From Phascolarctobacterium sp. (GTDB lineage: Bacteria > Bacillota > Negativicutes > Acidaminococcales > Acidaminococcaceae): a DNA stretch of 49,621 nt. Where the stretch lies: contig JAFTMR010000073.1 of NCBI GenBank assembly GCA_017452325.1, positions 1 through 49,621 on the forward strand, read 5' to 3'. Made by a program: the position numbers and the translations under genes. Shown here in pieces: positions 11,249 to 43,010 of the stretch (positions are counted from its first letter, which is position 1; every line of letters starts with the position of its first letter). The notes below the pieces were generated by a model, which had not been told where the DNA came from, did no database searches, and saw only the letters and a program-made list of their open reading frames with translations.

Positions 11249-12312
11249 TAGTAGAGTTCCTTTCTTCTGGCAGCAGCAACACGCATCATATCCTTCATCT
11301 GCTCGCCATCACCTGCACGCAATGCCTTACGCCACAGGTCAAGCTGTTCAATATATTTATCAATTTCGTCAGCAACCTTTTCCTTATTGGCAAGGAACAA
11401 GCTACACCACAATTCCGGATTAATATCTGCTACGCGAGAACCATCCTTAAAGCTGCCTGCTACAAAGAACTTGGTCTTATCATTGTAAGAGATACTGTTC
11501 ATCAACGCCACTGCAGTAACGTGAGTCAAATTACTGGTGTAGGCAATGATACGGTCGTGTTCTTCGGGAGTTACCCTTACAGTATTACGACAGCCTAAAG
11601 CCATGGCAAATTTTTCTAGCCACTGTACAGTTTCTTCCCTGTTATGTTTTTCAGGAACAATGATGTAATTGGCATCACGGAAAATTTCTGCCTCAGACAT
11701 TCCCAGTCCACTGCCTTGACGCCCCGCCATGGGATGACCGGAGATAAATTCCATACCAACCTTCAATTCAGCATGAGCATCCTTAGTCAATGTTCCTTTA
11801 ATACCGGAAACATCCGTAATCAAAACATCATCTTTAAAATATTGCACATTGTTGCGTAAGAAATCCACGATGCTTTCCGGATACACAGCGCAAATAATTA
11901 CATCTGCTTCTCGCAAAGCCTCGTTAGGCTCCGTCAGTACAAGGTTAGCAAGTCCCAAACGTTGCACTTGCAGAGCAACCTCTTTATCAATTTCTACTGC
12001 AATTATATTTTTAACACCGAGGTTGCGTAAAGCCTTGGCATAGGAACCACCTATAAGTCCCATACCGATAATGGCAAACTTTAGCTGTTCCCACTTGGTG
12101 CTTCTACCGCGCTTGGTAATCTCTACAACTTGCTCTATGACTTCATCTTCGCCCAAGGTACTAACTTCAAAACCGCTAGTATCACCTACGATACCAAACA
12201 AAGTAATATTAGCACCTTTACTTTCGTGAATGATAAAGCCCTGATTTTCTAGTTTAACTCTAACCCTTAGCTTCGCTTCTTCCGGAACATTGGGTTTAAA
12301 TACGATTATCAT
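11248..12312 (-). CDS. tyrA: Prephenate dehydrogenase with an N-terminal DAHP-synthase-type domain
   Basis: 354 residues. From about residue 76 it is a prephenate dehydrogenase: NAD motif IIGMGLIGGSYAKAL (about 81-95), ISGHPMAGRQGSG, TPEEHDRIIAYTSNLTH. It oxidatively decarboxylates prephenate to hydroxyphenylpyruvate, the Tyr branch. Residues 1-70 (MIIVFKPNVPEEAKLRVRVK, then IVGDTSGF) are plainly homologous to the first 70 residues of the two adjacent DAHP synthases, the ferredoxin-like domain that in Thermotoga-type DAHP synthase carries feedback control. I see no C-terminal ACT domain, so the N-terminal domain may be its Tyr sensor. The fusion is visible in the sequence; the regulatory role is inference. 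Confidence 0.93.
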   Translation of the reverse strand: MIIVFKPNVPEEAKLRVRVKLENQGFIIHESKGANITLFGIVGDTSGFEVSTLGEDEVIEQVVEITKRGRSTKWEQLKFAIIGMGLIGGSYAKALRNLGVKNIIAVEIDKEVALQVQRLGLANLVLTEPNEALREADVIICAVYPESIVDFLRNNVQYFKDDVLITDVSGIKGTLTKDAHAELKVGMEFISGHPMAGRQGSGLGMSEAEIFRDANYIIVPEKHNREETVQWLEKFAMALGCRNTVRVTPEEHDRIIAYTSNLTHVTAVALMNSISYNDKTKFFVAGSFKDGSRVADINPELWCSLFLANKEKVADEIDKYIEQLDLWRKALRAGDGEQMKDMMRVAAARRKELY

Positions 12313-12379: not shown

Positions 12380-13393
12380 TTAAAGCTCTCTACCCACAAT
12401 TTGAGCAATGCCTTTCAGCTCACCCATCAAACGAGCGAAGCGTTCCGGTTTTAAAGATTGGGCACCGTCGCACAAAGCATGTTCAGGATCGTTATGTACT
12501 TCAATCAACAGACCATCTGCACCAACAGCCACTGCTGCTTTTGCCAAAGGCTCTACCATCCACCACAAACCTGCTGCATGACTGGGGTCAACAACTACGG
12601 GCAAATGGCTCAACTTTTTAACCGCAGGGATGGCACTCAAATCCAAAGTGTTACGAGTGTAAGTTTCAAAGGTTCTAATACCACGCTCACACAGAATAAC
12701 ATTTTCGTTACCACCAGCCATAATGTATTCTGCGGACATAATCCATTCCTCGATAGTCGCGGAAAGACCACGTTTCAGCAAAATCGGAGTGCGGGTTTTA
12801 CCCAACTCTTTTAAAAGTTCAAAGTTTTGCATATTACGAGCACCTACTTGGATAAGGTCAACATCTTCTACGAAGCGTTCAATCTTATCAGCGCTCATAA
12901 TCTCGGTAACGATTGGTAAACCTGTTTCTTCTCGAGCAGCCTTCAAATAATCTAAGCCTAATTCCTTCAAGCCTTGGAAGCTGTAGGGAGAGGTTCTAGG
13001 TTTAAAAGCACCACCACGCAACAATGAAGCACCACCCAATTTAACAGATTGTGCTACAGAAGTTACCTGTTCAACGCTTTCAACTGAGCAGGGACCGGCA
13101 ATAACCTGAATCTTACGACCGCCAATAGGTACTCCTGCCACGTCAATAACACTGTCTTCTGGATGGAAGGCACGATTAGCACGTTTAAACGGCTCCTGCA
13201 CGCGCATAATCTTTTCAATGCAATCATCAGAAATCAAAGTGCGCATATCAAAGGCACTGGTATCACCAACAATACCATACAGGGTAACATTCAAACCATT
13301 ACTTTCATGAATCTGAAAGCCTTGATTTTCTAATTTAGCTCTTACCTTCAATTTTGCTTCTTGGGCTGCACCTGGTTTAAATACAATAATCAT
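12380..13393 (-). CDS. aroF: 3-deoxy-7-phosphoheptulonate (DAHP) synthase, second copy
   Basis: 337 residues, type I-beta DAHP synthase. Condenses PEP with erythrose-4-phosphate, the entry step of the pathway. Residues 1-70 form the ferredoxin-like regulatory domain (MIIVFKPGAAQEAKLKVRAK); the TIM barrel follows with IQVIAGPCSVES, RGGAFKPRTSPYSFQG and VDPSHAAG. The barrel is almost identical to that of the next gene upstream, but the regulatory domain is clearly diverged, suggesting duplication with different feedback properties. Good ribosome-binding site (AAAGGAGCG) before the ATG. The symbol is used for the family; these are sometimes called aroG. Confidence 0.94.
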   Translation of the reverse strand: MIIVFKPGAAQEAKLKVRAKLENQGFQIHESNGLNVTLYGIVGDTSAFDMRTLISDDCIEKIMRVQEPFKRANRAFHPEDSVIDVAGVPIGGRKIQVIAGPCSVESVEQVTSVAQSVKLGGASLLRGGAFKPRTSPYSFQGLKELGLDYLKAAREETGLPIVTEIMSADKIERFVEDVDLIQVGARNMQNFELLKELGKTRTPILLKRGLSATIEEWIMSAEYIMAGGNENVILCERGIRTFETYTRNTLDLSAIPAVKKLSHLPVVVDPSHAAGLWWMVEPLAKAAVAVGADGLLIEVHNDPEHALCDGAQSLKPERFARLMGELKGIAQIVGREL

Positions 13394-13483
13394 AATTTGT
13401 TCGCTCCTTTACTATCCTACAATTCTACAATACTACTCTATAGCTTAAGCGAAAGCTTAACATAGACAACTACAATTCTACGA

Positions 13484-13514
13484 ACCCCTTACAGCTCCCC
13501 TATCAGAGGAGCCA
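13484..13514. repeat. Dispersed hairpin repeat between the two DAHP synthase genes
   Basis: The sequence GCTCC CCTATCAGA GGAGC preceded by CCCCTTACA resembles the second hairpin of the element at 32371-32405. On the plus strand it is followed by a T-run. The same intergenic region carries the 12-mer CTACAATTCTAC twice (13417-13428 and 13470-13481). Confidence 0.45.
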
Positions 13515-13524
13515 TATTTTTTAC

Positions 13525-14538
13525 TTAGAGGTCGCGGCCTACAATTTGGGCGATACCCTTCAATTCGCCCATCAAACGTGCGAAACGCTCCGGTTTCAAA
13601 GATTGAGCACCATCACATTTTGCATGTTCAGGGTCATTGTGTACTTCAATAAGTAAGCCGTCTGCGCCAACAGCAACTGCTGCTTTTGCCAAAGGCTCTA
13701 CCATCCACCACAGACCTGCTGCGTGGGACGGGTCAACGATTACCGGCAAATGGCTGAGCTTTTTAACTGCGGGAATAGCGCTCAAGTCCAAAGTGTTGCG
13801 GGTATAATGTTCAAAAGTACGAATACCGCGTTCACACAGGATAACGTTTTCGTTACCGCCAGCCATAATATATTCTGCGGACATAATCCATTCCTCGATG
13901 GTTGCAGAAAGACCACGTTTCAGCAAAATCGGAGTACGGGTTTTGCCCAGCTCTTTCAAAAGTTCAAAGTTTTGCATATTGCGTGCGCCTACTTGGATAA
14001 GGTCAACATCTTCTACAAAACGTTCAATCTTATCGGCACTCATAATCTCGGTTACGATGGGTAAACCAGTCTCTTCCCTTGCTGCTTTCAGATAATCAAG
14101 ACCAAGCTCTTTTAAACCTTGGAAGCTATAGGGAGAAGTTCTAGGTTTGAACGCGCCACCACGCATCAAGGTTGCGCCACCAAGCTTAACGGATTTAGCA
14201 ACAGTGATTACCTGCTCTTGACTTTCAACAGAGCAAGGACCTGCAATAACCTGAATCTTACGGCCACCAACTGGTACTCCAGAAACGTTAACAACACTGT
14301 CATCCGGATGGAAAGCACGGTTAGCACGTTTGAAAGGTTCAGAAACACGCAGTACTTTTTCAACGCAATCATAAATGCGCAACATATTGATATCTAAAGC
14401 ACTGGTGTCACCGATAATTCCGTAAATAGTAGTATTAATACCGTTAATTTCATTAATCATATAGCCTTGATTCTCAAGGTTTTGCTTAATACCAGCCTTA
14501 GTTTCTTGGGGTGCATTAGGTTTGAATACTATTACCAT
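13525..14538 (-). CDS. aroF: 3-deoxy-7-phosphoheptulonate (DAHP) synthase, first copy
   Basis: 337 residues from the ATG at 14538, which has AAGGAGAG eight bases upstream; an in-frame ATG at 14562 lies before that site and is rejected. First structural gene of the aromatic operon. Same architecture as its neighbour: N-terminal ferredoxin-like domain (MVIVFKPNAPQETKAGIKQN) and type I-beta barrel with IAGPCSVES and RGGAFKPRTSPYS. The two barrels differ at only a handful of positions after about residue 115, whereas residues 1-70 differ much more. It is expressed behind a Phe/Tyr leader peptide and attenuator. Confidence 0.94.
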   Translation of the reverse strand: MVIVFKPNAPQETKAGIKQNLENQGYMINEINGINTTIYGIIGDTSALDINMLRIYDCVEKVLRVSEPFKRANRAFHPDDSVVNVSGVPVGGRKIQVIAGPCSVESQEQVITVAKSVKLGGATLMRGGAFKPRTSPYSFQGLKELGLDYLKAAREETGLPIVTEIMSADKIERFVEDVDLIQVGARNMQNFELLKELGKTRTPILLKRGLSATIEEWIMSAEYIMAGGNENVILCERGIRTFEHYTRNTLDLSAIPAVKKLSHLPVIVDPSHAAGLWWMVEPLAKAAVAVGADGLLIEVHNDPEHAKCDGAQSLKPERFARLMGELKGIAQIVGRDL

Positions 14539-14659
14539 AAAAATTCTCTCCTTTGTGTTCATGTAAGCTTAATTTTACCCTGCAGATGATGCTGTAAGTA
14601 TCATTCTTAAAAGCTTACTACCACGATTATTTACCTCCCTAGGTAATGTATCGCCGCTC

Positions 14660-38449: not shown

Positions 38450-38480
38450 AAAAGTCAGGAAGACATTGTATCTTCCTGAC
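38450..38480 (-). terminator. Terminator downstream of the Cas9-like gene
   Basis: Minus-strand hairpin GTCAGGAAGA / TCTTCCTGAC (10 bp perfect, loop of seven) followed by TTTTGC. It lies about 100 bases after the Cas9-like stop codon and would give any transcript from this region a defined, structured 3' end. Confidence 0.8.
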
Positions 38481-38494
38481 CATAACCATTCTTA

Positions 38495-38531
38495 CTTGCA
38501 AGCTCATCAATATCCAACAAAGGACTAAAAC
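38495..38531 (-). repeat. CRISPR-repeat-like direct repeat, distal copy
   Basis: On the minus strand it starts GTTTTAGTCCTTTGTTGG and ends GATGAGCTTGCAAG (37 bases). The GTTTTAGTCC start resembles type II CRISPR repeats; the Campylobacter repeat reads GTTTTAGTCCC in the same orientation. About 28 bases of it recur at 38542-38571. One isolated unit plus a partial copy is not an array, so this may be a remnant, part of a guide-RNA gene, or coincidence. Confidence 0.45.
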
Positions 38532-38541
38532 AAATAAATAT

Positions 38542-38571
38542 CTTGCATAAGCTTATCAATATCCAACAGAG
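38542..38571 (-). repeat. Direct repeat, proximal copy
   Basis: Shares TGTTGGATATTGAT-AGCTT and the terminal GCAAG with the distal copy (offset 49 bases), but lacks the GTTTTAG start. It begins about 11 bases after the Cas9-like stop codon. Confidence 0.55.
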
Positions 38572-38582
38572 TTTCTTTTACT

Positions 38583-40953: not shown

Positions 40954-41136
40954 GTGAAGCCGAAAGAACTTATTAAAATTCTTGAAGCGAATGGTTGGCA
41001 GCTGCAGCGTTCTCGTGGTTCACATTACACATATAAACACGATAACATTCCTGCTTTGCTAACCATACCAGTTCATAACAAAGATATGAAAATTGGTACG
41101 CTCAATCAACTTCTGAAAGCAGCAGGACTGAAATAG
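40954..41136 (+). CDS. hicA: HicA-type mRNA interferase toxin
   Basis: 60 residues from the GTG at 40954, eight bases after AGGAGG; an upstream in-frame ATG at 40930 lies inside the -10 box and is rejected. Small double-stranded-RNA-binding-like fold: KPKELIKILEANGWQLQRSR, then GSHYTYKH with the catalytic His24, and the ending HNKDMKIGTLNQLLKAAGL. It degrades mRNA when not held by HicB. Complete and apparently active. Located directly upstream of hicB and divergent from the Cas9-like gene. Confidence 0.93.
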   Translation: MKPKELIKILEANGWQLQRSRGSHYTYKHDNIPALLTIPVHNKDMKIGTLNQLLKAAGLK

Positions 41137-41170
41137 TCCTGCTGTACATATCGCAAAGGAGCTTATTGAT

Positions 41171-41566
41171 ATGGAAAAAAGAATTTATCCTGCAATATTT
41201 CATAAAGAAGAAGTTGGCTACTCCGTAACCTTTCCTGACCTTCCTGGTTGCATAACAGAAGGCGATACTTTAGAAGAAGCCTTTACCATGGCACAAGATG
41301 CTTTGGGTATTTATCTCTACACCTTAAAAGAAGATAAAGTAGATTTACCTAAATACGTCGCGCCAGAAGTTTTAATTCTTGATAAAGATAGCTTCATTAC
41401 CCTTGTTGAATGGGATGAGCTAGAATACCTTAAACGTACCAGTAATAAATCTGTCAAAAAGACTCTAACAATTCCAGAATGGCTTAACACCAAAGCAGAA
41501 GAAGAAAATATTAACTTTAGTCAAACTTTACAAAAAGCTTTATTAGAACAATTAGAAGAAGCTTAG
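41171..41566 (+). CDS. hicB: HicB-type antitoxin
   Basis: 131 residues, AAAGGAG before the ATG. N-terminal partial RNase H-like HicB domain (YPAIFHKEEVGYSVTFPDLP, then GCITEGDTLEEAFTMAQDAL) that masks HicA, and a C-terminal ribbon-helix-helix-type DNA-binding segment (KKTLTIPEWLNTKAEEENIN). It should neutralise HicA and repress the promoter through the palindrome at 40910-40923. Confidence 0.93.
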   Translation: MEKRIYPAIFHKEEVGYSVTFPDLPGCITEGDTLEEAFTMAQDALGIYLYTLKEDKVDLPKYVAPEVLILDKDSFITLVEWDELEYLKRTSNKSVKKTLTIPEWLNTKAEEENINFSQTLQKALLEQLEEA

Positions 41567-41990: not shown

Positions 41991-43010
41991 TCACCTATTC
42001 CCATACATCTTTTCATAATAGTTTTGATACTCACCACTGATGATGTTCTCCCACCAGTCGCGGTTATCCAAGTACCATTGAATAGTCTTCTTAATACCAT
42101 CTGCAAACTTAGTTTCAGGCAGCCAACCTAATTCGTTGTGAATCTTAGTCGGGTCAATGGCGTAACGCATATCATGACCTTTGCGGTCAGCAACGTAAGT
42201 AATCAAGCTTTCCGGCTTGCCCAGTTCCTCGCAGATAAGCTTAACGATATCAATATTGCGCATCTCGTTATGACCACCAATATTATAAACTTCGCCAACT
42301 TTACCTTTATGCAGAATCAAATCTATCGCCTTGCAATGGTCTTCAACATAGAGCCAATCACGCACGTTAATGCCTTCACCGTAAACAGGCAAAGGTTTGT
42401 CGTTCAAAGCATTGGCAATCATCAAGGGGATAAGCTTTTCTGGAAAATGGTAAGGTCCGTAATTGTTGGAGCAACGGCTAATAGTCACAGGCAAACCATA
42501 AGTACGGTAATAAGCCAACACCAATAGATCCGCACCAGCCTTAGAGCTGCTATAAGGAGAGCTAGTGTGGATTGGAGTTTCTTCCGTAAAGAACAAGTCC
42601 GGTCTGTCCAAAGGCAGGTCACCATAAACTTCGTCAGTAGAAACTTGATGATAACGTTTAATACCAAACTTACGACAAGCATCCATCAGTACAGCAGTGC
42701 CCATTACGTTGGTTTGCAAGAAAATTCCAGGGTCTTCAATGGAACGGTCAACGTGGCTTTCCGCAGCAAAGTTAACCACGATATCAGGACGTTCTTCCTT
42801 AAAAAGCTGCTCCACTGCCTCGCGGTCACAAATATCTGCCTTCACAAAACGGAAGCTAGGAGCATCCATCACACCTGCCAAAGTGGAAAGATTACCCGCG
42901 TAAGTAAGCTTGTCCAAGCAGATGATACGATAATCAGGATACTTCGCAAGCATATGAAATATAAAATTAGAACCTATAAATCCGGCACCGCCGGTGATGA
43001 TGATTGTCAT
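41991..43010 (-). CDS. rmlB: dTDP-glucose 4,6-dehydratase
   Basis: 339 residues, extended short-chain dehydrogenase. Converts dTDP-glucose to dTDP-4-keto-6-deoxyglucose on the way to dTDP-rhamnose. Marks: TGGAGFIGSNFI (NAD binding), FAAESHVDRSI, STDEVYGDL, YSSSKAGADLLVLAYYRTYG with catalytic Tyr-x3-Lys, and NYGPYHFPEKLIP. Last gene of the surface-polysaccharide cluster; no rmlA, C or D is present here, so the other steps must be encoded elsewhere. Confidence 0.96.
   Translation of the reverse strand: MTIIITGGAGFIGSNFIFHMLAKYPDYRIICLDKLTYAGNLSTLAGVMDAPSFRFVKADICDREAVEQLFKEERPDIVVNFAAESHVDRSIEDPGIFLQTNVMGTAVLMDACRKFGIKRYHQVSTDEVYGDLPLDRPDLFFTEETPIHTSSPYSSSKAGADLLVLAYYRTYGLPVTISRCSNNYGPYHFPEKLIPLMIANALNDKPLPVYGEGINVRDWLYVEDHCKAIDLILHKGKVGEVYNIGGHNEMRNIDIVKLICEELGKPESLITYVADRKGHDMRYAIDPTKIHNELGWLPETKFADGIKKTIQWYLDNRDWWENIISGEYQNYYEKMYGNR

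Follow-up and report, generated by a model that had tools for sequence, protein, structure and literature searches.

A one-spacer mini-array beside a nuclease-dead Cas9 in Phascolarctobacterium is a likely fixed guide for DNA binding

Just downstream of a cas9-like gene in the window, that is the whole 49,621-nt stretch of Phascolarctobacterium DNA analysed, two repeats, A and B, enclose a short spacer, x. We consider it likely that this A-x-B element is a one-spacer mini-CRISPR gene, whose fixed crRNA is dedicated to the adjoining nuclease-dead Cas9 (Table 1). At the level of sequence, this reading draws on homology to CRISPR repeats, loss of both nuclease centres, pairing potential, covariation of the pairing in trans, and conservation of repeats and seed; from these we infer transcription, processing, complex formation, DNA binding and repression. 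Dead Cas9, mini-array and tracrRNA would together probably provide one permanent DNA address, i.e. a natural form of CRISPRi, and the system is most likely a non-adaptive regulator that an RNA guides to DNA, corresponding on the Cas9 side to TldR.

In the model that we propose, the mini-array is probably read through from the cas9 gene and would end at the hairpin. Its repeats would pair with a shared tracrRNA supplied by the second dead-cas9 locus of the genome (G000:C96), B binding the inner anti-repeat (b') beside the nexus and A the outer one (a'). The A:a' duplex, which we take to serve RNase III processing, would most likely let this enzyme generate the 5' end of the guide. The mature guide would then comprise a few repeat bases followed by the spacer of 13 nt, or of 18-19 nt in paralogs. 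With this guide, dead Cas9 may find a DNA site that matches the seed TATTTATT(T/A); bound there, the complex would leave the DNA uncut and block transcription.

Table 1. Features of the window and positions at compared loci
Feature	Position	Strand	Basis
Nuclease-dead Cas9, 752 aa, P0001	38583..40841	-	TIGR01865 profile, alignment with active relatives, dN/dS
Element A, 5'-truncated CRISPR repeat, CTCTGTTGGATATTGATAAGCTTATGC	38545..38571	-	Homology; 27-nt complementarity (G-U allowed) to a'
Spacer x, candidate guide, 13 nt, AAGATATTTATTT	38532..38544	-	Tail shared by five paralogs
Element B, full 36-nt CRISPR repeat, GTTTTAGTCCTTTGTTGGATATTGATGAGCTTGCAA	38496..38531	-	Homology to G017/G018 and G106/G114 arrays
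10-bp hairpin then TTTT, terminator-like end of predicted mini-array transcript	38450..38480	-	
HicA-like toxin gene, between rfbB and dead cas9	40954..41136	+	Sequence pattern only
HicB-like antitoxin gene	41171..41566	+	ORF; family search matches weak
rfbB (dTDP-glucose 4,6-dehydratase), last gene of preceding polysaccharide cluster	41991..43010	-	
Toxin-antitoxin-like genes at three loci	Window 40954-41566; L012 8053-8932; L014 9036-10297		
tracrRNA loci showing tandem anti-repeats	L059, L060, L061, L137, L138, L139		

A Cas9 family without its nuclease centres

The 752-aa protein matches the TIGR01865 Cas9 signature with an E-value of 3.9e-73 and 247 bits (cut-off 100), the best stretch corresponding to the N-terminal half of the profile. 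Alignment with active relatives revealed that the entire HNH region including the DHI motif is absent, that the segment carrying the RuvC-III HHAADA (HHxxDA) motif is deleted and that the RuvC-II Glu is replaced by Ala. The RuvC-I Asp, the Arg-rich bridge helix and the REC and WED/PI regions are retained. HNH and HHxxDA segments are likewise missing from all five paralogs found in two species, so that none of them retains a type II nuclease centre. These paralogs are C63 (the window) and C96 in the source genome (G000), and C30, C36 and C14 in its congener Phascolarctobacterium sp. RGIG4568 (G002). An AlphaFold model built from four sequences was set aside because its mean pLDDT was 34.5.

In the tree, the five dead Cas9s form a single clade with 100% support, in which C63/C30 and C96/C36 are ortholog pairs; hence, at least these two paralogs are older than the species split. 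Pairwise dN/dS values range from 0.12 to 0.23. For the ortholog pairs they amount to 0.20 (C63/C30) and 0.18 (C96/C36), indicating that the genes are under purifying selection and are not pseudogenes. Indeed, the open frames are intact in all five.

Only these two genomes carry the family, which counts against the mini-CRISPR reading. In the source genome, which is about 90% complete, we found no Cas9 other than the dead C63 and C96 proteins, and no active one. The searched viral contigs contained neither the dead Cas9 protein nor the repeat, and phages and plasmids yielded only distant Cas9-like matches. A full-length Cas9 is also encoded by G002 (L016, G002:C12), together with an unrelated repeat and a 17-copy array, and active and dead Cas9s thus occur together in one genome. 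No cas1 or cas2 gene adjoins any of the dead cas9 genes. Since nuclease centres, a multi-spacer array (see below) and adaptation genes are all missing, we class the loci as a derivative of type II and not as a type II CRISPR-Cas immune system.

The mini-array and a tracrRNA encoded in trans

On the minus strand, element A begins 11 bases past the dead cas9 stop codon and is followed by x, B and the hairpin. The direct repeats at 38500-38522 and 38549-38571, whose starts are 49 bases apart, are identical at 21 of 23 positions; dinucleotide shuffling of the intergenic region, repeated 2000 times, gave 19/23 at best. The distal copy opens with GTTTTAGTCC (38531 down to 38522), and A is missing the nine bases with which the CRISPR repeat begins. 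The hairpin is perfect over 10 bp, with arms at 38454-38463 and 38471-38480, a loop of 7 nt and TTTT at 38450-38453; a strict terminator scan gives it no score because the T-run is short. In the C30 ortholog the hairpin is retained with one compensatory change from G-C to A-T. An Rfam scan gave no match within the window.

The same repeat unit builds ordinary arrays in relatives. The nearest active Cas9s are those of G017 and G018, a different genus of the Acidaminococcaceae, followed by those of G102, G106 and G114 from a different family, and the locus order in these genomes is tracrRNA-cas9-cas1-cas2-array (the G102 array is masked). Their array repeats read GTTTTAGTACTCTGTTGGATATTGATAAACTTACAC, in the closest relatives, and GTTTTAGTTCTATGTTGGATATTGATAAACTGATAC, with spacers of 28-31 nt and a period of about 66 bp. 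Judged by this homology, A and B are CRISPR repeats, and the dead loci are, relative to the arrays, shrunk to one short spacer. Compared with the type II-C-like loci G017:C1 and G018:C2, the dead loci have a homologous Cas9 (about 50-58% identity in shared regions), a homologous 36-nt repeat and a homologous tracrRNA with tandem anti-repeats. However, the former retain HNH, RuvC-III, cas1, cas2 and a multi-spacer array, whereas the latter lack all of these and hold a single short spacer. G018 has, in addition, a second, distinct type II locus (L063, G018:C2:66000-80000) with a Cas9 of ~1070 aa and at least 25 repeats (GTTTTAGTACTTTGTAAATTCTTAATGTGATAAAAC).

A-x-B lies 3' of dead cas9 in all five loci, each with two repeats and one short spacer and thus no multi-spacer array. 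At zero mismatches, the repeat unit occurs in G000 in only six copies, each adjoining a dead cas9. Spacer x measures 13 nt in C63 and C30, and 18-19 nt in C36, C96 and C14. Its distal portion varies among the paralogs in length and sequence, whereas all five share, without change, the last 8-9 nt at its PAM-proximal end (TATTTATT plus T or A). A and B are almost invariant as well, although synonymous sites are near saturation. Between C63 and C30, for example, A-x-B is 96% identical against 44% of synonymous sites being different, and the bases from the stop codon to A and from B to the hairpin have drifted. This is the pattern expected for a Cas9 guide with a PAM-proximal seed under selection.

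These results bear out much of the original prediction, which had been made from the window's letters. It had described two imperfect direct repeats, the distal one opening like a type II repeat, and a hairpin with a T-run, and had proposed a guide locus for the dead Cas9, made up of a potential guide segment, a handle resembling a repeat, and a hairpin at the end. This proposal is supported, and its idea of a fixed, non-adaptive guide agrees with dead loci that combine an invariant seed and strongly conserved repeats with the absence of cas1/cas2 and an array. The sharing of TTGGATATTGAT by both copies, then unexplained, is accounted for by its being the core of the CRISPR repeat. A decayed coding duplication, offered at the time as another origin, is excluded by the regular arrays that this unit forms in relatives. 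The likeness to a natural single guide such as long-form tracrRNA did not hold up either, as A-x-B includes neither an anti-repeat nor a nexus and depends on the C96 tracrRNA. Finally, its remark that no separate array or anti-repeat is seen is correct for the window; elsewhere in the genome, C96 encodes a tracrRNA with two anti-repeats.

The tracrRNA genes are located upstream of dead cas9, on the opposite strand, at G000:C96 (positions 11912-12088) and G002:C14. They comprise a sigma-70-like promoter (TTGACA-17-TAGAAT), the outer anti-repeat a', the inner anti-repeat b', a nexus (GTTCTAAGATAAGGC), further stems and a terminator. Comparison of eight relatives revealed compensatory changes, on both sides of the terminal stem and of one pair in the middle stem. 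Each genome with dead cas9 has exactly one tracrRNA locus; G001 and G003, two sister species that lack dead cas9, have none. The two genes are 97% identical over 177 nt and yet stand upstream of different paralogs, showing that the module moved between paralogous loci. Active type II tracrRNAs of the Acidaminococcaceae and of another Negativicutes family have tandem anti-repeats about 40-44 bases apart; a literature search for such tandem anti-repeats in tracrRNAs found nothing. As active relatives also possess them, tandem anti-repeats are ancestral. Neither C63 nor C30 has a tracrRNA nearby, so that both must borrow one, which we count against the mini-CRISPR reading.

Calculated pairing energies suggest that the two repeats divide their partners. 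B and b' form a duplex of -49.2 kcal/mol as compared to -39.5 for the ancestral repeat, and A and a' form a continuous 27-bp duplex of -41.2 kcal/mol, the crossed A:b' pairing being weaker (-32). The one repeat of G017 shows no such preference between a and b (-39.8 and -39.5 kcal/mol), in comparison with which A/a' and B/b' look specialised. Moreover, the partners change together. The G000 tracrRNA has CAAAGG and ATCAATATCC, and C63 and C96 have the counterparts CCTTTG in B and GGATATTG in A; the G002 tracrRNA has CAAGGG and ATCAACATCC, and C14 and C36 have CCCTTG in B and GGATGTTG in A. Both pairings covary in trans between the genomes. The exception is C30 of G002, which retains the alternative A and B variants and pairs more poorly or via G-U, and this counts against the reading. 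Gene conversion between loci may contribute and could mimic part of the covariation. On topological grounds, A:a' and B:b' are probably not formed simultaneously within one pair of molecules.

Targets, genomic context and rival explanations

The original prediction had proposed a genome search for guide matches. None above chance emerged for any guide in the genomes, which likewise weighs against the mini-CRISPR reading. A composite guide, made of the 3' end of repeat A plus the seed, matched the mini-arrays only, and spacer-length patterns with mismatches occurred about as often as the reversed-pattern control, the intergenic sites being few and in no way conspicuous. Exact 13-nt matches fell into the purF coding sequence and an AbiH-like gene (named from sequence patterns) and were discarded. 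We also dismissed a 12-nt site for the C36 guide in an aminotransferase-like promoter (TTGTATTTATTA), which lies in an apparent operator palindrome and is unremarkable against background; the seed site in this promoter is conserved in both genomes. Three spacers from active relatives, used in a search for a PAM, had no exact match in viral contigs.

Among the alternatives, autoregulation is a tentative possibility. It proposes that the spacer is an old copy of a tracrRNA or cas9 promoter, and that repression by the complex is aimed at its own tracrRNA or at a related active system's promoter, for which tracr-L and CreR provide precedents. Indeed, A-x is similar to the part of the active G017 locus that comprises outer anti-repeat and promoter (TAATTTTGTATTTATT versus TAATTTGTATTTATT), and it is possible that this likeness of the spacer to a tracrRNA promoter is a trace of a self-targeting origin. 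However, the shuffle P values of the three longer spacers, uncorrected for multiple comparisons, are 0.01-0.05, and the matching locus belongs to a different genus; nor do the guides of the dead systems match the tracrRNA promoters of these systems.

The genomic surroundings raise a slightly less probable scenario, in which each dead Cas9 is made along with one polysaccharide cluster and silences the promoters of the others, as TldR does for flagellin. Dead cas9 genes close polysaccharide clusters in all five loci, which are distributed over three sites of the chromosome, preceding priA, rpsB and a speA-like gene (window 41991-43010; L012, L013, L014, L015). At G002:C30 and G002:C36, rfbB is directly upstream of dead cas9 on the same strand, ~57 nt apart, whereas toxin-antitoxin or other insertions precede dead cas9 at C63, C96 and C14. 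Furthermore, ATTTATTT is found just past the -10 box in two cluster promoters of G002. Against this, the ATTTATTT match covers 8 nt only (P about 0.1 per promoter by a rough estimate), the promoter of the window's own cluster lacks it, and full cluster starts are visible at some loci only. Surface-polysaccharide control would be an attractive role, the cluster location being an association. We regard as similarly speculative the wider picture of a Cas9-derived regulator family with three ancient paralogs, each with its own guide, which share a tracrRNA with two anti-repeats, sit at polysaccharide-cluster ends and select the polysaccharide that is expressed.

Two further features of the neighbourhood may be recorded. 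At three loci, genes of toxin-antitoxin type (HicAB-like and RelE-like, judged by sequence pattern) separate dead cas9 from the polysaccharide genes (Table 1). Elsewhere in the window (12380-14562), two adjacent, similar DAHP-synthase-like genes are found within an aromatic amino acid cluster.

It is improbable that dead cas9 and mini-array are functionless leftovers of a lost, decaying type II system. The deleted nuclease domains, the truncated A, the shortened spacer, the missing cas1/cas2 and the lack of an identified target would fit such decay. However, dN/dS is about 0.2 in both ortholog pairs, five open frames are intact, A, B and seed are nearly unchanged despite synonymous near-saturation, and the pairing covaries with a single tracrRNA. 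Equally hard to sustain is a role as tracrRNA sponge or anti-CRISPR, with dead Cas9 and A-x-B sequestering tracrRNA from type II systems that are resident or newly arriving. In its favour, B pairs strongly with tracrRNAs of this type, and phage II-C2, in which RuvC is inactive, has been suggested as an anti-CRISPR (PMC12669027). Against it, both genomes have a specialised tracrRNA gene of their own, the repeat that serves the active Cas9 of G002 is unrelated, G000 has no active Cas9, and the conserved seed is left unexplained.

Relation to known RNA-guided systems

Nuclease-dead Cas9 is familiar as a laboratory tool. IsrB, an HNH-less OMEGA nickase guided by an omega-RNA, is likewise devoid of HNH and differs from the dead Cas9s in being a nickase, whereas here RuvC-III is missing as well. 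Our literature search, which covered passages of the 2025 CRISPR classification and a library without preprints and most subscription journals, found no Cas9 lacking both nuclease centres. In that classification, the II-C2 phage Cas9 is RuvC-dead with an apparently active HNH (PMC12669027), whereas in the family described here HNH is deleted and RuvC-III lost.

Closer likenesses exist at the level of the guide. In S. pyogenes, tracr-L is a fixed, host-encoded RNA with which active Cas9 binds DNA without cutting via a short match, and 11 matching guide nucleotides suffice for promoter repression by Cas9 (PMC11417352). A 14-nt guide supports stable Cas9 binding and hardly any cutting (PMC11724282). 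The A-x-B system resembles tracr-L in combining a fixed RNA with a short guide match. However, tracr-L unites anti-repeat and guide in one RNA and employs an active Cas9, whereas here the mini-array is separate, A-x-B carries no anti-repeat beside its guide, and Cas9 is dead. With regard to the cas promoter addressed by tracr-L, the systems' own tracrRNA promoters are unmatched and the match to the G017 promoter is weak. CreR and CreA are crRNA-like regulators with partial complementarity to a promoter (PMC12737573). As in CreR-type loci, partial repeats surround a short spacer that is not extended by adaptation; CreR/CreA belong to types I and V-A and act with a working Cas effector, whereas a dedicated dead Cas9 is present here.

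The nearest counterpart is TldR, a nuclease-dead RNA-guided protein encoded beside its guide locus and adjoining surface-structure (flagellin) genes (PMC13418256). The dead Cas9 loci share with it a nuclease-dead effector encoded beside its own guide. TldR, however, derives from TnpB with its own guide RNA, whereas the effector described here is of Cas9 and not TnpB ancestry and would use crRNA plus tracrRNA. Repression has been demonstrated for TldR, and dead Cas9 is known here from sequence; host promoters matched the searched guides no better than chance. With so few parts, namely one protein and two RNAs, what dead Cas9 binds is directly testable. If the proposed function is true, a natural Cas9 family with both centres dead and with selected guide, tracrRNA pairing and seed would be evolution's own dCas9, paralleling the same move that evolution made with TnpB (TldR) and Cas12.
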